37,078 bases of DNA. It comes from Thiotrichaceae bacterium. GTDB taxonomy: Bacteria; Pseudomonadota; Gammaproteobacteria; Beggiatoales; Beggiatoaceae. Below, in pieces: positions 5,284-37,078 of the stretch; positions within the stretch are counted from its first letter, which is position 1; each line of letters starts with the position of its first letter. Location: contig JALWSU010000446.1 of the NCBI GenBank assembly GCA_026993485.1, positions 1-37,078 on the forward strand. Reading direction: 5' to 3'. Position numbers and translations under genes: made by a program. Under the pieces are notes generated by a model that was given only the letters and a program-made list of their open reading frames with translations, did no database searches and was not told the origin of the DNA.

Positions 5284-5370
5284 AAGCGTAGCTAAACCTC
5301 CGAGGTTTTGAAAACCTCGGAGGTTTGATTTTAAGGCTTGATTTAAGCCAAACCTGACAGGTTTTTTTTC
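5284..5370. repeat. Double palindrome plus half palindrome
   Basis: A perfect CCG/CGG double palindrome (5294-5326) is followed by GATTTTAAGGCTTGATTTAAGCC and a half copy with GAC (5349-5367) whose right arm is missing. The order matches 2581-2766. The rest of the gap up to 5441 holds nothing I recognise. No clear ribosome site precedes the next gene. Confidence 0.85.
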
Positions 5371-6503: not shown

Positions 6504-6546
6504 ATAAGTATTGAAGCACAAAAAATTATCTGGGATTTTAAAAATT

Positions 6547-6607
6547 GGGCAACCACAAGGGATTGCCCCTACTACATAATGTAGGGGGCAATCCCTTGTG
6601 GTTGCCC
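6547..6607. repeat. GGGCAACC hairpin, copy 1
   Basis: The inverted repeat has arms GGGCAACCACAAGGGATTGC... (6547-6571) and the complement ending GGTTGCCC (6582-6607), around a 10-bp loop. Related copies lie at 26023, 27826, 31082 and 32395, and a decayed one at 10355. With the elements on each side it fills the 6354-6785 gap, which otherwise shows no gene. Confidence 0.9.
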
Positions 6608-6643
6608 GTATGGCAAAATCTCCAGAAAATCATGCTTCTTCAG

Positions 6644-7954: not shown

Positions 7955-8089
7955 TTTTTACTCCGTTTCTTAATTATTAATTAAAGTTATAATGATACAT
8001 TATGTCATAAGGGATTAAAATACATCGCTAGTAGTATCTAAAAAAATGATTTTTTTATTTAAACTTTTACGCTATCATTGTTTTTAATT

Positions 8090-8269
8090 AGGAATTACGC
8101 ATTGACAAACGAATTGTTTTATTTTCTCCTTGGAATCCAAAGCTTTAGCTTTGGACCGTCCAAACGAAGTAAGCGTAGCTAAGGCTTTGGACTCCAAGTA
8201 TATAAATTTTAACAGTTTGTTTTTATTTAAAAAACCTAAAAAACTTCTGCTGTCAGTGCGTAAGTCCTA
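8090..8269. mobile_element. MITE family A copy (GGACTTACGCA ends)
   Basis: The left end is AGGAATTACGCATTGACAAA and the right end is TGTCAGTGCGTAAGTCCTA, an imperfect terminal inverted repeat. Inside is TTGGAATCCAAAGCTTTAGC facing its complement GCTTTGGACTCCAAG, with the GAAGTAAGCGTAGC word between them. There is no coding capacity. The family recurs whole at 33363, 35023 and 36571 and in part at 14793, 18998 and 19606. It occupies most of the 7955-8346 gap. Confidence 0.85.
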
Positions 8270-12800: not shown

Positions 12801-13027
12801 AAAAACCTCCGAGGAAAACCATACCTCGGAGGTTATCAAACTATACTCAACACCTTCACAAATTTAGCTCACTCAATATAGATTTATCGAGCTTGGAGTG
12901 CAAGGTTACCTTGCACGACAAGCGGTAGCGTACAAGGTAACCTTGTACTCCTGTTCAAAAACCAATTGTTCAAATTGTGAAGGTGCAGAGTATAACGACC
13001 TCCGAGGTATGGTTTTCCTCGGAGGTC
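12801..13027. repeat. 227-bp nested inverted repeat between convergent genes
   Basis: The outer arms are CCTCCGAGGAAAACCATACC... (from 12806) and its complement (to about 13026). They are extended inward by TATACTCAACACCTTCACAA (12842-12861) against TTGTGAAGGTGCAGAGTATA (12975-12994). In the centre sits a different palindrome pair, GGAGTGCAAGGTTACCTTGC and TACAAGGTAACCTTGTACTCC (12895-12952). It fills the 12760-13069 gap and probably separates the gmk and gltD transcripts. Confidence 0.88.
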
Positions 13028-13069
13028 TGATTTTAAGGCTTAACTTAATGGCATTGGTATAAATCTACA

Positions 13070-19605: not shown

Positions 19606-19702
19606 GATTGGAATCCAAAGCTTCAGCTTTGGCTCGTCCAAAGCTAAAGCTTTGGACTCCAAGGAGAAAATAAAAAATTCGTTTGTCAATGCGTAAGTCC
19701 TA
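19606..19702. mobile_element. MITE family A, right part
   Basis: TTGGAATCCAAAGCTTCAGC ... AAAGCTTTGGACTCCAAGG, then AATTCGTTTGTCAATGCG and TAAGTCCTA at the end. The right end is intact and the left terminal repeat is missing. The ends of this copy mark two junctions: the UPF0175 promoter on the left and a scrap of metH on the right. Confidence 0.85.
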
Positions 19703-20124: not shown

Positions 20125-20260
20125 GGTTTATCCGCTTTTATAACTCATCCCTGTAGTTACTTTTGGTAGAACTACAGGGATGTTATATAAGCAGGGATAA
20201 GGCAAAAACTACTAGATTTTTAGTTTTTTATCCTTGCTTATATAGCATCCTTGTAGTTAT
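20125..20260. mobile_element. Family B mini-element (ACTACAGGGATG ends), one and a half copies
   Basis: A right half (TTTATCCGCTTTTATAACTC then ATCCCTGTAGTTA, 20125-20159) is followed by a full element (20170-20260) with arms AACTACAGGGATGTTATATAAG... and the near complement ending ATCCTTGTAGTTA. Related copies are at 25743 (left half) and 36962 (whole). It ends 16 bp before the ATPase ATG. Confidence 0.82.
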
Positions 20261-25970: not shown

Positions 25971-26072
25971 CTGAGGTTACGCACCCTCGTTCCCAAGCTC
26001 GAAACACTCTATTATACACAAAGGCAACCGATTGCCCCTACAGTTTGTAGGGGCAATCCCTTGTGGTTGCCC
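25971..26072. repeat. GGGCAACC hairpin with GTTACGCAC outer arm, incomplete
   Basis: CTGAGGTTACGCACCCTCG, CACTCTATTATACACAA, then a GGCAACC...GGTTGCCC hairpin (26023-26072). The outer right arm present at 32457-32508 is missing. The order of the ATTATACACAA word shows this copy is inverted relative to that one. Confidence 0.82.
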
Positions 26073-26091
26073 ATTTTCTCACAACAAACAA

Positions 26092-27678
26092 TCAACTTGT
26101 AAACAAAGACGCATGTAATAAACTTTGTGTATAAGGATGTTGCGGCTGATTAAATATATCTTCAGTTTTACCTTCTTCAACAAATTGCCCGTGACGCATT
26201 ACAATGATACGGTGGGAGATTGCCCGAATCACTTTTAAATCATGGCTAATAAATAAATAACTGATTTTGTGTTTGCGTTGTAATCTCATTAATAGATCAA
26301 GTACTTGTTTTTGAACCGAAACATCTAATGCACTAGTGGGCTCATCCAGTAAAATTATTTCTGGTTCCAAAATCACAGCTCGTGCTATCGCAATTCGTTG
26401 ACGTTGCCCCCCCGAAAATTCGTGGGGATAGCGTGAGAGCATGTCTTCTTTTAAATCAACTTCTTTGAGGATTGCAACAATGCGCTCACGGCGTTGGCTA
26501 CGGCTTAACTCAGGATAATGGATAACTAAACCTTCGCCAATAATTTCCTCGATCCTCATTCTAGGTGATAAAGATGAATAAGGGTCTTGAAAAACTACTT
26601 GGAACTGGCGACGCAAGGGACGAATTTCGCCTGTGCTTAATTGATCTAAACGGTGATTCTGAAACAGAATTTTTCCTGTGCATTGTTGTAATCGCAATAA
26701 ACATAATCCTAAAGTAGTCTTACCTGAACCTGATTCTCCAACTATACCAAGGGTTTCACCTGGGTATAAATGTAGATTGACATTATCAACCGCTTTGAGT
26801 TGCTCCTCTGTGCGTTTAAAAAAACCATGTTTTTGGGAAAAATAGCAATGAATTTCTTGCCCTTCTAATAAGGGGGTTGGATGAGTAGAGTAGTCGTAAT
26901 CGGTTTGAATTCTTTGAGGTTGGCTATTCAGTAAATGTTGAGTATAAGGATGTTTTGGTTGCTTAAATAAGCTATCAACGTCAGCAATTTCAACTAATTG
27001 TCCTTTTTGCATTACGCAAATACGTTCCGCAAAGCGTTTAACTAAATTTAAATCATGGGAAATCAACAATACAGCCATACCAAAATCTTTTTGCATAGAT
27101 TCAAGTAGTTCGATAATCTGCAATTGTATAGTTACATCTAAGGCTGTTGTCGGCTCATCAGCAATCAACAATTTTGGCTTACAGGCTAAAGCCATTGCAA
27201 TCATAACCCGTTGACGCTGCCCACCAGATAAAGTATGTGGATAAGTATCAAAGCGTTTCTGCGGTTCAGGAATGCCAGTTTGATCTAATAGTTCAATCAT
27301 ACGGCGGCGAGCAGCAGATTTACTTAAATTTTCATGTATCAACAATGGTTCCATCAATTGACTACCAATGGTATAAACAGGATTTAAAGAAGTCATTGGC
27401 TCTTGAAAAATCATGGCAATATCTTTTCCGCGTACCTGACGCAAATCTGCCTCTTTCATTTGCAACAAATCTTGCCCTTGAAATTCAATTTTGCCACTGG
27501 GATAGCTGACTTGTTGACGATCATGCAATTGTAAAACTGATAAAGCTGTTACAGATTTACCAGAACCAGATTCACCAACTAAGGCTAGTTTTTCACCCGC
27601 GTTAATCTGAAAACTCACTTCATTTACAACTGTTTTTCCAAAGGCAACCGATAAGTTATTTATATTTAATAAAGTCAT
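26092..27678 (-). CDS. yejF: Peptide ABC transporter, duplicated ATPase
   Basis: 528 residues with two complete ABC domains. Domain 1 has Walker A GESGSGKS (near 35), signature LSGGQRQRVMIAMA and Walker B LLIADEPTTALD. Domain 2 has GESGSGKT (near 315), SGGQRQRIAIARA and IILLDEPTSALD. Each ends in the oligopeptide-type QPKHPYTQ tail. The size and two-domain plan match YejF, which powers the YejABEF importer of microcin C and oligopeptides. The yejA, yejB and yejE genes are not adjacent. No strong ribosome site precedes the ATG. Confidence 0.9.
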   Translation of the reverse strand: MTLLNINNLSVAFGKTVVNEVSFQINAGEKLALVGESGSGKSVTALSVLQLHDRQQVSYPSGKIEFQGQDLLQMKEADLRQVRGKDIAMIFQEPMTSLNPVYTIGSQLMEPLLIHENLSKSAARRRMIELLDQTGIPEPQKRFDTYPHTLSGGQRQRVMIAMALACKPKLLIADEPTTALDVTIQLQIIELLESMQKDFGMAVLLISHDLNLVKRFAERICVMQKGQLVEIADVDSLFKQPKHPYTQHLLNSQPQRIQTDYDYSTHPTPLLEGQEIHCYFSQKHGFFKRTEEQLKAVDNVNLHLYPGETLGIVGESGSGKTTLGLCLLRLQQCTGKILFQNHRLDQLSTGEIRPLRRQFQVVFQDPYSSLSPRMRIEEIIGEGLVIHYPELSRSQRRERIVAILKEVDLKEDMLSRYPHEFSGGQRQRIAIARAVILEPEIILLDEPTSALDVSVQKQVLDLLMRLQRKHKISYLFISHDLKVIRAISHRIIVMRHGQFVEEGKTEDIFNQPQHPYTQSLLHASLFTS

Positions 27679-27728: not shown

Positions 27729-27922
27729 TGTCCCTCTTCTCCCTCCCCTTAACCCCCGCTCACTCCTTTATACATAAATTTTTAAATAATTGATTTAATT
27801 GCGTTTCATACTGAAACGCCTCACAGGGCAACCACAAGGGATTGCCCCTACAAACAGTGGGGGCAATCCCTTGTGGTTGCCCTTGTGTATAAGAGAGTGA
27901 ACCCCGGGTTAGGGGGAGGAAG
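27729..27922. repeat. Three-layer nested hairpin
   Basis: The outer imperfect arms are CTCCCTCCCCTTAACCCCC (27740) and GGGTTAGGGGGAGGAAG (to 27921). The middle arms are CACTCCTTTATACATAA and TTGTGTATAAGAGAGTG. The inner GGGCAACC hairpin lies at 27826-27882. An extra small hairpin GCGTTTCATACTGAAACGC sits at 27801-27819. It fills the gap between yejF and the GGDEF-EAL gene, both on the minus strand. Confidence 0.82.
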
Positions 27923-30605: not shown

Positions 30606-30665
30606 AAACCTCCGAGGTTTTCAAAACCTCGGAGGTTTAGACTTAAATTGTTTTTTGAAATACTA
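30606..30665. repeat. Double palindrome with AGACTTAAATT tail
   Basis: A perfect CCG/CGG double palindrome (30606-30638) is followed by AGACTTAAATT, GAAATACTATA, as at 169-203. It lies 22 bp after the lpxL stop and may end its transcript. Confidence 0.9.
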
Positions 30666-30924: not shown

Positions 30925-31081
30925 AATAAATTTTCTATCTATTTTGTTAGTGATTACAAATGTATTATAATGACAAAAAAAATTTTGGTATTATTTTTAT
31001 AAAACCTCAATAAAATTGGGGTTGAATTGAAATGCCGAAGAATTGTCAAAAGTTGTCATTAACGACAACAAACGCCTTAAA

Positions 31082-31137
31082 GGGCAACCACAAGGGATTG
31101 CCCCTACAAACAATGATGTAGGGGCAATCGGTTGCCC
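31082..31137. repeat. GGGCAACC hairpin, copy with shortened right arm
   Basis: GGGCAACCACAAGGGATTGC, CCCTAC, a short loop, GTAGGGGCAATCGGTTGCCC. The right arm lacks the CCTTGTG block that the left arm would pair with, so the stem has a bulge; the copy at 26023 has the mirror-image deletion. Confidence 0.88.
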
Positions 31138-32371: not shown

Positions 32372-32508
32372 TGTTACGCACTCTCGTTCCCACTGGGCAA
32401 CCACAAGGGATTGCCCCTACATCGTTGTTTGTAGGGGCAATCCCTTGTGGTTGCCCTTGTGTATAATAGAGTGCACTCCAGCGTGGGAACGATAGTGCGT
32501 AACATCAG
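32368..32508. repeat. GGGCAACC hairpin nested in a GTTACGCAC inverted repeat
   Basis: The outer arms CTGATGTTACGCACT and AGTGCGTAACATCAG are perfect 15-bp complements, continued by CTCGTTCCCA against TGGGAACGA. Inside, off centre, lies the GGGCAACC hairpin (32395-32456) with its TTGTGTATAATAGAGTG tail. It is the best-preserved composite copy and separates convergent lolA and the phosphatase gene. Confidence 0.9.
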
Positions 32509-32515
32509 CTATTAA

Positions 32516-33337
32516 TTAAAAAAAATTTAATTGTTTTGGTAGCAAGGCTTGAATCGCTGAAACAAAGCCTTGCAACCAACTGGTTTTCGGCGACAAAAAA
32601 AGCGGACGTACCAATATCAAAGAAATATTATCTTTACCCCCGTTTTCATTTGCAGCATTAATTAATGAATGCGCCGCCCGCTCAAGCGAACTATTATTTT
32701 TAATAATATTATACATATCAGTTTCTTTAAGCATATCGCTTAAACCATCAGAACACAGCATATAAATATCTTGCTCAAGGATTTTATATTCCTGTGTTTC
32801 AATATTCACCAACTGCTCCAGCCCAAGTGCCTGCGTTACAATATGCTTATTAGGTGAATTTTGAGCCTCTTCAGCTGTATAAAAACCACAATCAATCAGT
32901 TCCTGTAATAGAGAATGATCTTTAGTCAATTGACAAAATTCGTTACCACGAAGTCGATAAAGACGCGAATCTCCAACATGGGCAACACTGAGAAAATCAT
33001 TATGAAACCACACGGCAACTACCGTTGTACCCATTCCTTGATAATTATTTTCCTGTTTCGCTTTCTGATGAATCGCTTGATTAGCTTTCAATACTGCTTG
33101 TTCAAGTAGCACAGTATGAGAATGCCTAGCCGCATAACGGGAAATAGTTTTTAGAGCACTAGACAATTTTTCCCTAATTGTGTCAATCGCCATTTTGCTT
33201 GCAACTTCACCAGCTTGACATCCTCCCATGCCATCAGCAAGCACAGCCAAACCAATAGACTCATCGCCACTAATAGAATCCTCATTATGTGTCCGAACTC
33301 TACCAGTATCAGTACGGGCTACAATTTCTATATGCAT
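32516..33337 (-). CDS. PP2C-family serine/threonine phosphatase
   Basis: 273 residues from the ATG at 33337, which has AGGAAA six bases before it. The frame extends to 33412, but that adds 25 residues encoded by a MITE (MFLLQNLQKLCCQ...), so I reject that start. The metal-binding motifs are R14-HNED (NED 18-20), D35-GMGG, VGDSRLYR, CSDGLSDML and GGKDNISLILV. It is a stand-alone cytoplasmic Stp1/PrpC-type phosphatase that reverses Ser/Thr phosphorylation; no Hanks-type kinase is in the window. Confidence 0.92.
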   Translation of the reverse strand: MHIEIVARTDTGRVRTHNEDSISGDESIGLAVLADGMGGCQAGEVASKMAIDTIREKLSSALKTISRYAARHSHTVLLEQAVLKANQAIHQKAKQENNYQGMGTTVVAVWFHNDFLSVAHVGDSRLYRLRGNEFCQLTKDHSLLQELIDCGFYTAEEAQNSPNKHIVTQALGLEQLVNIETQEYKILEQDIYMLCSDGLSDMLKETDMYNIIKNNSSLERAAHSLINAANENGGKDNISLILVRPLFLSPKTSWLQGFVSAIQALLPKQLNFF

Positions 33338-33362
33338 AAAAAATTTCCTAATTAAATCCATA

Positions 33363-33535
33363 AAACTCACGCACTGACAGCACAATTTTTGTAGGTTTTG
33401 TAGTAAAAACAAATTCTTACAATTTATAAATTACTTGGAGCACCAAAGCTTTAGCCTTATACGGCACCAAAGCTAAAGCTTTGAACTCCAAAAAATAAAA
33501 AAATTAGTTTATCAATGCGTAAGTAAATCCCAATC
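33363..33535. mobile_element. MITE family A, inserted upstream of the phosphatase
   Basis: The left end is ACTCACGCACTGACAGCAC, the inner arms TTGGAGCACCAAAGCTTTAG and AAAGCTAAAGCTTTGAACTC, and the right end ATCAATGCGTAAGTA. It begins 25 bp before the phosphatase ATG. It must separate or supply the promoter of that gene. The rest of the gap to 33657 has no gene. Confidence 0.82.
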
Positions 33536-33657: not shown

Positions 33658-34119
33658 ATGTTCCATTGTATTCTTTACCAACCAGAAATACCCCCAAATA
33701 CCGGCAACATCATTCGTATTAGCGCTAATACAGGGGTAAAACTTCATTTAATTCATCCACTTGGCTTTAAATTAGACAACAAAAGACTTAAACGCGCTGG
33801 ACTTGACTATCATGAATGGACAAAACTTATCGAACATGATTCTCTAGAATCATTTTTAGAAACCGTACAACCACCACGCTTATTTGCATGTTCAACTAAA
33901 GGCAAAAGTTGTTATGCAGAACACAATTATCAGATAGGAGATGCGTTTTTATTCGGCCCCGAAACGCGAGGCCTGCCACAAACCGTGCTGGATAAATTTC
34001 CACCTGAACAAATAATACGGATTCCGATGTTACCCAAACGTCGCAGCATGAATTTATCTAATGCAGTCGCAGTGATTATTTATGAAGCGTGGAAACAAAT
34101 AGGCTTTAAAATGAAATAA
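33658..34119 (+). CDS. trmL: tRNA (cytidine(34)-2'-O)-methyltransferase
   Basis: 153 residues with the three SPOUT motifs: PPNTGNIIRISANTG, FLFGPETRGLP and IPMLPKRRSMNLSNAVAVII. The KLDNKRLKRAGLDYHEW block identifies TrmL. The enzyme methylates the wobble base of tRNA-Leu with S-adenosylmethionine. The length matches E. coli (157). The PfkB kinase starts four bases after its stop, so the two form an operon. Confidence 0.96.
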   Translation: MFHCILYQPEIPPNTGNIIRISANTGVKLHLIHPLGFKLDNKRLKRAGLDYHEWTKLIEHDSLESFLETVQPPRLFACSTKGKSCYAEHNYQIGDAFLFGPETRGLPQTVLDKFPPEQIIRIPMLPKRRSMNLSNAVAVIIYEAWKQIGFKMK

Positions 34120-34123
34120 CACT

Positions 34124-35011
34124 ATGGCTACAATATTAGCGATTGGCATCGCCACACTGGATATCATCAACACCGTAAACCAATACCCACAAGAAGACAC
34201 AGAAATACGCGCATTAAGTCAGCGCATCTGTCGCGGTGGTAATGCAACTAATACTTTAGTCATCTTAAGCCAACTAGGACATCATTGCACTTGGGGCGGA
34301 GTCTATGTAAATGATCCTGATGGACAGCTAATTTTGGAAGACTTAGCGCAACATCACATTGACACCAGTAACTGTAGAATCGAATCTCAAGGCAAAGTTC
34401 CTACATCCTATATTATATTAAATCAGCGCAACGGCTCTCGAACAATTGTCCACTACCGCCTTTTGCCAGAATTCGACTTCAAAGATTTCCAATCTATTCA
34501 ACTAAATCCTTTTGACTGGTTACATTTTGAAGGGCGTAATATTATCGAAACCGCCCGTATGTTAGAGCGAGTTCAACAAATAGCCCCCACCTTACCAATT
34601 TCATTAGAAATAGAAAAACCCCGTCCTCAAATTGAACAATTATTCAACAAAGTAAATGTGTTATTATTTTCTAAAGCATTTGCACAAGCAAATGCCCAAA
34701 AATTTGCTTATAATAAAAACGACGCCGCCACATTTTTACGCACAATGCAGCAACTAGCACCAAAAGCTCGCCTATTCTGTACATGGGGAGCCAAAGGAGC
34801 TTATGCTTTAGACACAGACGGCACATTATTTCACTGCCCCGCTTACCCGCCATCGCAAATAGTCGATACACTAGGCGCAGGAGATACATTCAACGCAGGC
34901 ATTATTGACAATCTCTGTCGTCAGCAAAATTTGGCGACAGCACTCAATCATGCTTGTCGGCTGGCGGGAAAAAAATGTGGACAACTAGGTTTATCGATTT
35001 CAACAACTTAA
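34124..35011 (+). CDS. PfkB-family sugar kinase, ketohexokinase-like
   Basis: 295 residues. ILAIGIATLDIINTV opens the fold, RGGNATNTLVILSQLG is the sugar-binding PfkB signature, and DTLGAGDTFNAG carries the catalytic base D254. The DWLHFEGRN, EIEKPR and FSKAFAQ order resembles ketohexokinase/fructokinase-like members. It phosphorylates a small sugar with ATP in the cytoplasm; the substrate is not certain. It sits four bases after trmL and probably depends on its promoter. Confidence 0.85.
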   Translation: MATILAIGIATLDIINTVNQYPQEDTEIRALSQRICRGGNATNTLVILSQLGHHCTWGGVYVNDPDGQLILEDLAQHHIDTSNCRIESQGKVPTSYIILNQRNGSRTIVHYRLLPEFDFKDFQSIQLNPFDWLHFEGRNIIETARMLERVQQIAPTLPISLEIEKPRPQIEQLFNKVNVLLFSKAFAQANAQKFAYNKNDAATFLRTMQQLAPKARLFCTWGAKGAYALDTDGTLFHCPAYPPSQIVDTLGAGDTFNAGIIDNLCRQQNLATALNHACRLAGKKCGQLGLSISTT

Positions 35012-35022
35012 TCATTTTTAAC

Positions 35023-35267
35023 AGGACTCACGCAGTGACAGCAGAAGTTTTTTAGTTTTTTTAAGAAAAACAAACTGTTAAAATTTATAACTTACTTGGA
35101 GCCCAAACGAAGTAAGCCTAGCTAAAGCTTTAGCTTTAGCTAGGCTTACTTAGCTACGCTTACTTCGTTTCGTTTGGACCTTCCAAAGCTAAAGCTTTAG
35201 CTACGCTTACTTCGTTTGGACTCCAAGGAGAAAATAAAAAAATTCATTTGTCAATGCGTAAGTCCTA
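35023..35267. mobile_element. MITE family A, long copy with internal palindromes
   Basis: The left end AGGACTCACGCAGTGACAGC and right end TTTGTCAATGCGTAAGTCC form the terminal repeat. The middle is enlarged by several copies of GCTAAAGCTTTAGC and GCTACGCTTACTTCGTTTGG in both directions (35100-35225). It is in the opposite sense to the copy at 36571, so the two bracket the serpin gene. Confidence 0.88.
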
Positions 35268-35287
35268 TTTAATTACAGGAGCTAACA

Positions 35288-36565
35288 ATGCAATTCAAAC
35301 CATATTATCATAATAGCTTGATTATTATGATATTTTTAACGTTATTCAGCCAAAGTGCATTCTCTGAAAAGATGACATCCTATCAGATGATCCCAAAAAT
35401 AGTAGCGGCCAACACCGCATTTGCGCTAGAACTCTATGCAGAAATGGGCAACCATAAAAAAGGCAACAACCTCTTTTTCTCCCCCTACAGCATCTCAACA
35501 GCCCTAGCTATGACTAATGCAGGAGCTAGAGGTAATACAGCAAGACAAATCTCCAAAGTGTTACATTTTCCTGAGAATCAAGATTATCTTCACCCAGCTT
35601 TTGGGATTTTGCAACAAGAAATGTCTGAGGCTCACAAAAAAAGTAGTGTTGAACTACGAATTGCTAATGCGCTTTGGGTAAAAAAAGACTCTTCCATTAA
35701 AGCTGACTTCAAAAACATCTTAAAGCAATATTATGGTGCTCAACCAAGAAATGTTGACTTTCAAACAACTGATTCTGAAAAAGTCCGCCTCAGAATCAAT
35801 AAATGGGTAGAAAATCATACTCAAAAAAAAATCAAAAACCTTTTACAAAAAGGCACTCTCAATCGGATGACTCGCCTAGTCCTAGTCAATGCCATTTATT
35901 TTAAAGGGCAATGGGCAAATCCCTTTAAAACCAGCAACACCAAAAATAGGCCCTTTTTTATTACAAAAACGCAGTCTATTTCGGTGCCAATGATGAAACA
36001 GAAAAATTATTTCAACTACATGGAAAATAACCAGCTGCAAGTAATTGAACTACCTTACGCAATTCGCGGCAAGCAACACCAACTCACATCCACTCATCTT
36101 AGCGACAGTATTTCAATGGTAATCCTACTACCAAAACAGCGTAATGGCATAGCAAAATTAGAAAAATCACTAAATCCAAACACACTTGAAGAATGGTTAA
36201 CTTACACCCGCCCCAAGAAAGTGGAAATCTCTCTACCGAAATTTAAGATCAACGCAGGAATTGAGCTATCCAAAATCCTATCTAAAATGGGAATGTCAGA
36301 AGCCTTTACAGACAAAGCTGATTTTTCCGGCATCAATGGCAAAAAAGACCTATCTTTAACATCAGTAATCCACCAAGCATTTGTCAATGTTGATGAACAA
36401 GGGACCGAAGCAGCAGCAGCAACAGCAGCCGTCCTTGGCGTTAGAAGCATAAATCCACCTCCTCCCGTATTCACTGCGGATCACCCTTTCATATTCTTAA
36501 TTCGTCATAAATCCACTGGCAGTATCCTATTTATGGGACGACTTATGAATCCGATTAAAAATTAG
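35288..36565 (+). CDS. Secreted serpin (serine protease inhibitor)
   Basis: 425 residues: a signal peptide (about 1-26, ending SAFS) and a complete serpin fold (NLFFSPYSISTALAMTNAG, VLVNAIYFKGQWANPF, SISMVILLP, KVEISLPKFKI). The reactive loop runs from E370 (P17): Q-G-T-E-A-A-A-A-T-A-A-V-L-G-V, then R386 (P1) and S387 (P1'). The G-T-x-A-A-A-A hinge fits inhibitory serpins, and Arg-Ser predicts trypsin-like targets. The end FTADHPFIFLIRHKSTGSIL and FMGRLMNP is standard. AGGAG at 35277-35281 is the ribosome site, right after a MITE end. It should act in the periplasm or outside the cell. Confidence 0.94.
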   Translation: MQFKPYYHNSLIIMIFLTLFSQSAFSEKMTSYQMIPKIVAANTAFALELYAEMGNHKKGNNLFFSPYSISTALAMTNAGARGNTARQISKVLHFPENQDYLHPAFGILQQEMSEAHKKSSVELRIANALWVKKDSSIKADFKNILKQYYGAQPRNVDFQTTDSEKVRLRINKWVENHTQKKIKNLLQKGTLNRMTRLVLVNAIYFKGQWANPFKTSNTKNRPFFITKTQSISVPMMKQKNYFNYMENNQLQVIELPYAIRGKQHQLTSTHLSDSISMVILLPKQRNGIAKLEKSLNPNTLEEWLTYTRPKKVEISLPKFKINAGIELSKILSKMGMSEAFTDKADFSGINGKKDLSLTSVIHQAFVNVDEQGTEAAAATAAVLGVRSINPPPPVFTADHPFIFLIRHKSTGSILFMGRLMNPIKN

Positions 36566-36570
36566 AAAAG

Positions 36571-36779
36571 TAGGACTTACGCATTGACAAACTAATTTTT
36601 TTATTTTCTCCTTGGAGTCCAAAGCTTTAGCTTAGGTACCGCCCAAACGAAGCAAGCGTAGCCAAAGCTAAAGCTTTAGCTACGCTTACTTCGTTTGGAC
36701 TCCAAATAAGTTATCAAATGTAACAATTTGTTTCTACCAAAAAACCTACAAAAATTCTGCTATCAATGCGTAAGTCCTA
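36571..36779. mobile_element. MITE family A, complete copy
   Basis: TAGGACTTACGCATTGACA at the left and ATCAATGCGTAAGTCCTA at the right: perfect ends apart from one base. The inner arms are CCTTGGAGTCCAAAGCTTTA and GCTAAAGCTTTAGCTACGCT, TTGGACTCCAA. It is 209 bp, the best copy for defining the family. It starts six bases after the serpin stop. Confidence 0.92.
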
Positions 36780-36845
36780 TTGATGAACAAACACTTTTCA
36801 AGCTGAAAAACGTGCAAAACGTACATTTGAGAAAAACTGTCTGAA

Positions 36846-36868: not shown

Positions 36869-36961
36869 CTTGACAAAATTTACTCAAGATTCATTTAAAT
36901 AAATTAATGATTTATTATCTAAAAAAGCTACTCAAGTAGTGAATCGCGTTAGTATTTTTTT

Positions 36962-37044
36962 TAACTACAGGGATGAACTATAAGAAAGGATAAGGCAAAA
37001 ATCTAAGTGTTTTTATCCGCTTTTATAACTCATCCCTGTAGTTA
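36962..37044. mobile_element. Family B mini-element, complete copy
   Basis: 83 bp with arms TAACTACAGGGATGAACTAT... and ...TAACTCATCCCTGTAGTTA around an 8-bp loop (TCTAAGTG). The whole can fold as one hairpin. Its terminal 14 bases are perfectly complementary. Confidence 0.9.
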
Positions 37045-37078
37045 TTGAAAAACTTTTAATAATATAAATACTTTATAC

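Follow-up and report, generated by a model that had tools for sequence, protein, structure and literature searches.

Characterised serpins related to the locus

Chloropin, the serpin of Chlorobium limicola (PDB 8gxv), covalently traps trypsin, thrombin and KLK7 at an Arg-Ser bond (PMC10090351). Beggiatoa was named by Spence et al. in 2021 among the carriers of hub-type prokaryotic serpins, which are described as environmental and chordate-like with an inhibitory hinge (PMC8233489). Serpins of plants and algae inhibit metacaspases (PMC10609998; PMC10896300); in the AtSerpin1-metacaspase pairs of plants and with CrSERPIN of green algae, the trapped proteases are caspase-fold enzymes specific for Arg/Lys (PMC10609998). 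In those caspase-fold (C14) proteases other than caspases that have been characterised, cleavage follows an Arg or Lys residue (PMC5756287). The genome of Ca. Thiomargarita nelsonii, which is rich in metacaspases, is described as also holding numerous short non-coding elements that form hairpins (MITEs; PMC4853749).

The stretch of DNA analysed here (the window, 37,078 nucleotides) comes from a 3.2 Mb Thiotrichaceae genome, 94% complete in 508 contigs. Its one serpin gene is that for which an earlier note had proposed an Arg-Ser reactive bond and acquisition (Table 1). The encoded protein resembles chloropin in being bacterial, in having a (predicted) signal peptide and an ExGTEAAAA hinge and in presenting Arg-Ser at P1-P1' at the same count, whereas chloropin belongs to another phylum and another branch of the serpin tree, and biochemistry exists for chloropin alone. 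It shares with antithrombin (SERPINC1) the serpin fold and the Arg-Ser reactive bond, but the two are 34-36% identical over the fold alignment, and antithrombin, a protein of eukaryotic plasma, has a heparin site of its own. By description it is like the hub-type prokaryotic serpins, while the plant and algal inhibitors differ from it in being eukaryotic; the repeats of the source genome are similar to those of Ca. T. nelsonii in general features. As the Arg-Ser bond of chloropin and its covalent protease trapping are already published, a bacterial Arg-Ser serpin is of a known kind.

Table 1. Positions of the features discussed, in the window unless a locus (L) is named
Feature	Position	Strand	Remarks
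SpoU-family (trmL-like) RNA methylase	33658..34119	+	PF00588, E 1.7e-33; 4 bp upstream of pfkB
pfkB-family sugar kinase	34124..35011	+	PF00294, E 9.6e-33; upstream neighbour of serpin
MITE copy between pfkB and serpin	35020..35270	.	17 nt before serpin ATG; left end degenerate
Serpin gene, 425 aa	35288..36565	+	PF00079; AGGAG ribosome site
Predicted Sec-type signal peptide, ~residues 1-27	35288..35368	+	sequence; script heuristic
Reactive centre loop P17-P1, EQGTEAAAATAAVLGVR	36395..36445	+	residue count; ungapped against chloropin and SERPINB1
P1 Arg386 - P1' Ser387, codons AGA AGC	36443..36448	+	residue count; Arg386 codon 36443-36445
MITE copy 3' of serpin	36568..36783	.	inverted relative to first copy; ~5 nt past serpin stop; TA at both ends
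AAACCTCCGAGGTTTTCAAAACCTCGGAGGTTT repeat	1-190, 2591-2837, 5294-5366, 12801-13048, 30606-30658		
GGGCAACCACAAGGGATTGCCCCTAC repeat	6535-6630, 26025-26095, 27814-27905, 31070-31134, 32383-32479		
Operon-like serpin-C14 runs (PF00656)	L184:2708-12177; L159:484-6489; L161:4303-10634; L185:7148-15566; L158:4535-10548		lipoprotein or exported serpins

Serpin identity, reactive centre loop and export

PF00079 (Serpin) was the sole Pfam family detected in the reading frame (E 8.4e-129, model positions 2-370 of 370), with a score of 430 bits against a curated cut-off of 27. The closest solved structure by sequence was that of chloropin (E 3e-87), and further matches were found to SERPINB1, conserpin and, lower down, antithrombin. 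AlphaFold2, which was given six sequences from the window and the compared loci, returned a serpin fold (pLDDT 78, pTM 0.80); when this model was used in a Foldseek search, antithrombin structures ranked first (E 2.5e-44, TM 0.84). Full-length family membership and fold thus bear out the assignment of the gene as a serpin.

Starting at P17, which is Glu370, a count of 17 residues leads to Arg386 as P1 and Ser387 as P1'. No gaps were needed to align the segment P17-P1 with chloropin and SERPINB1. The same count gives Cys-Met in SERPINB1, in agreement with its P1, which we take to be Cys, and Arg-Ser in chloropin, in agreement with the published P1 Arg (PMC10090351). The P1-P1' pair proposed earlier is therefore upheld by an ungapped register that recovers the known P1 of both references, and so is the inhibitory type of the hinge: P17-P9 (residues 370-378) reads EQGTEAAAA and matches ExGTEAAAA, with Gln at position x instead of E/K/R as a slight deviation from the published motif. 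Structure prediction, suggested earlier as a means of confirming the loop register, confirmed the fold. The model has a strand at residues 372-384, as in loop-inserted serpins, and because residues 387-399 have a pLDDT below 50 it does not fix the position of the exposed loop. By these sequence features the protein is an ordinary, typical-looking bacterial serpin of inhibitory type.

Signal peptides were called with a crude script, which gave no call for those window genes that served as clearly cytosolic controls. The serpin scored positive, and export, at the least into the periplasm, is probable. The description of the protein as secreted thus survives in part, as an export signal predicted by the crude script. 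From the computed family, register and hinge we infer an inhibitory course in which the serpin would be exported to the cell envelope and a protease with Arg specificity would attack the Arg386-Ser387 bond; the cleaved loop would then be taken up by the main sheet, with the protease held as a covalent complex.

Distribution and gene order in the bacterial family

Of 37 genomes sampled from the bacterial family of the window, 22 carry serpins; among the 21 other genomes of the class in the same sample, none was found to. A wider sample of the class outside the family yielded serpins in about 9 of 365 genomes, several of them weak matches. In a maximum-likelihood tree, in which deep branches are weakly supported and other phyla thinly sampled, the window serpin fell in a clade of 15 family serpins (support 91/92), adjoining those of G031, G033 and G018 and separate from SERPINB1, chloropin and the serpins of other phyla. 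Both by tree and by identity, its nearest kin are members of the family. No serpin was found in G001, the only other genome of the genus, an absence that carries no weight since pfkB lies at a contig edge there and the genome is 59% complete.

Among 30 aligned family serpins, 21 show Arg or Lys at the strictly counted P1, and in six more it stands one residue earlier (27/30). In the clade of the window serpin, 15 of 15 carry Arg either at P1 itself or at the preceding residue. Within the family alignment, the exact Arg-Ser pair recurs in G031 and in one serpin of G024. As computed from this alignment, a basic P1 is a trait of the family. Broken serpin genes, spread over several frames, were seen in two large-genome relatives (L164, G019:C103, 7560-8793; L165, G018:C183, 6946-8452).

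The order pfkB then serpin on the same strand was found in six other genomes of the family (G033, G034, G003, G027, G035 and G021; loci L170, L171, L175, L177, L181 and L156). In G033 (L171) the pfkB stop and the serpin ATG are separated by 23 nt free of MITEs, and the window spacer minus its MITE has a similar length. The serpin probably lay ancestrally just 3' of pfkB, probably co-transcribed with it. A scan of the window for promoters and terminators gave nothing that clearly exceeds shuffled sequences, and no promoter stands out. A foreign base composition was considered and rejected, the GC content of the gene being 38.3% against 36.9% for the window; its third-position GC (36% against 27-34% in neighbours) is slightly raised and not decisive. 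A pfkB homologue also occurs at G008:C61 (43932-46094), divergent beside a full-length trypsin-like gene, on a contig with no serpin among the matches listed.

Repeat elements and the origin of the locus

As noted earlier, inverted MITE-like elements lie on both sides of the serpin gene. Both are bounded by AGGACTTACGCATTGACA-type ends, of which the window holds 7 against 0.05 expected, with TA at three of the four ends, a boundary that we take to resemble IS630-type insertion. The source genome contains 135 instances of the 12-base end (reversed control, 0), and at least 42 element copies were counted there, 14 of the 42 with another copy within 2 kb. The same ends are present in 29 of 41 family genomes. 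Given these numbers the pair at the serpin is unremarkable and close pairs are common; at 74% mutual identity, the two copies are not a recent pair. As RNA, the left copy is predicted to form a very stable hairpin (-106 kcal/mol), which may reduce read-through from pfkB; the upstream element may weaken serpin expression.

Further copies or pieces of this MITE family lie at 8086-8269, 19608-19702 and 33356-33528; the third of these overlaps a PP2C phosphatase reading frame (32516-33412) in its start region. The window also holds a second dispersed palindromic repeat, AAACCTCCGAGGTTTTCAAAACCTCGGAGGTTT, with many copies in or near intergenic gaps, a third family, GGGCAACCACAAGGGATTGCCCCTAC, frequently in inverted pairs, and a fourth, palindromic repeat (AACTACAGGGATGA...TCATCCCTGTAGTT) at 20127-20259 and at 36955-37051, the latter at the contig end just 3' of the serpin, which stops 513 bases short of that end.

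The earlier note had read the flanking MITEs as a sign that the serpin was acquired for defence. Under that reading two inverted elements moved the gene as a composite element; they bracket the reading frame tightly (17 nt upstream, 5 nt downstream), and MITE pairs flanking a moved resistance integron have been described (PMC3934969). Against it, six family genomes keep the pfkB-serpin order without these MITEs, so that the gene does not occur only together with them as a moving unit, and other serpin loci of the family lack the MITE ends save for one in L011. The frequency of close pairs, the divergence of the two copies and the placement of the nearest serpin kin within the family, with the MITE a genome-wide repeat, speak against it as well, and we regard recent acquisition as very improbable. 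The same elements could disturb expression, and with broken serpins in two relatives (L164, L165) one might picture a non-inhibitory or decaying gene that has another role or is being lost. The intact reading frame and ribosome site, the near-perfect hinge and the retention of the P1 Arg across the clade make this most unlikely. Judged by the conserved gene order and the MITE-free spacer of G033, the serpin has long been resident in the family and the MITEs were inserted later. Two copies of a common element would have entered, one in the short spacer before the gene and one just after it. Taken as a whole, a canonical inhibitory, envelope-exported serpin resident of old 3' of pfkB, beside which two common MITEs inserted later, is the reading that we hold with good, though not full, confidence. 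The case illustrates how little flanking MITEs by themselves say about gene acquisition.

Candidate target proteases

The source genome carries 13 caspase-fold (C14) genes (L154 and L186-L197), 12 of them with signal-like starts by the crude script; several carry long extra regions. In a sister clade of family serpins, mostly lipoproteins, C14 genes occurred in 6 of 12 regions against 0.5 expected (P ~3e-6), and over all 31 serpin regions in 6 against 1.74 expected (P ~0.006), statistics that are post hoc, with regions of the same genome not independent and C14 genes possibly clustered. A kinase/FGE-sulfatase protein in L166 was excluded from the count after a Pfam check. At L184, L159, L161, L185 and L158, genes for serpins and for caspase-fold proteins share a strand and are for the most part closely packed, with OmpA, DUF4384 or DsbD_N genes among them at some of the loci; the C14 genes include those at 9205-10287 in L184 and at 7057-8076 in L161. 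These operon-like runs occur in four genera of the family and may represent a bacterial serpin-metacaspase system. In the full-text literature, with most subscription papers outside coverage, work on serpins with metacaspases concerned plants and algae, and no bacterial pair was found.

Near serpins of the window's own clade no C14 gene was found (0 of 17 regions), and the 37-kb contig has none, so the operon arrangement of the sister clade is not seen at this locus and the link to a target is borrowed from that clade. The most likely candidate that we infer, tentatively, is the cell's own set of exported, putatively Arg/Lys-specific caspase-fold proteases. The idea that the serpin instead protects proteins of the envelope or the surface against trypsin-like enzymes of predators, grazers or neighbours ranks second and is likewise possible without being probable. 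It draws on the predicted export signal, on an Arg-Ser loop resembling that of chloropin, which inhibits trypsin, and on the suggestion of Spence et al. that environmental serpins of this kind guard against proteases, be they endogenous or exogenous (PMC8233489); however, recognisable defence genes were absent near the serpin within the window, and for release from the cell the predicted export signal is the one pointer. Self-protection against the cell's own caspase-fold proteases would be no less likely than defence against proteases from outside. Housekeeping control of another endogenous envelope protease, HtrA/DegP or a trypsin-like S1 enzyme, we consider unlikely. PF00089 matches occur in 40 of 41 family genomes, most relatives having a full-length trypsin-like domain, but the source genome has two matches, of which the listed one is partial and HtrA-like, and among the matches listed no full-length trypsin-like gene was found there. 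To our knowledge, HtrA has no preference for Arg at P1, which counts against HtrA as the target.

Serpins and caspase-fold proteases in the family

The lead of greater interest lies outside the window, in the family serpins that stand in operon-like runs with caspase-fold proteases. As a rather speculative general scheme, the serpins of the family would act as brakes on the cell's own exported caspase-fold proteases, the mostly lipoprotein branch being co-operonic with them and the soluble branch, to which the window serpin would belong, being periplasmic and directed at proteases whose genes lie elsewhere. The family pairs P1-Arg/Lys serpins with many apparently exported C14 proteases, which bears on the role of serpins in free-living bacteria.
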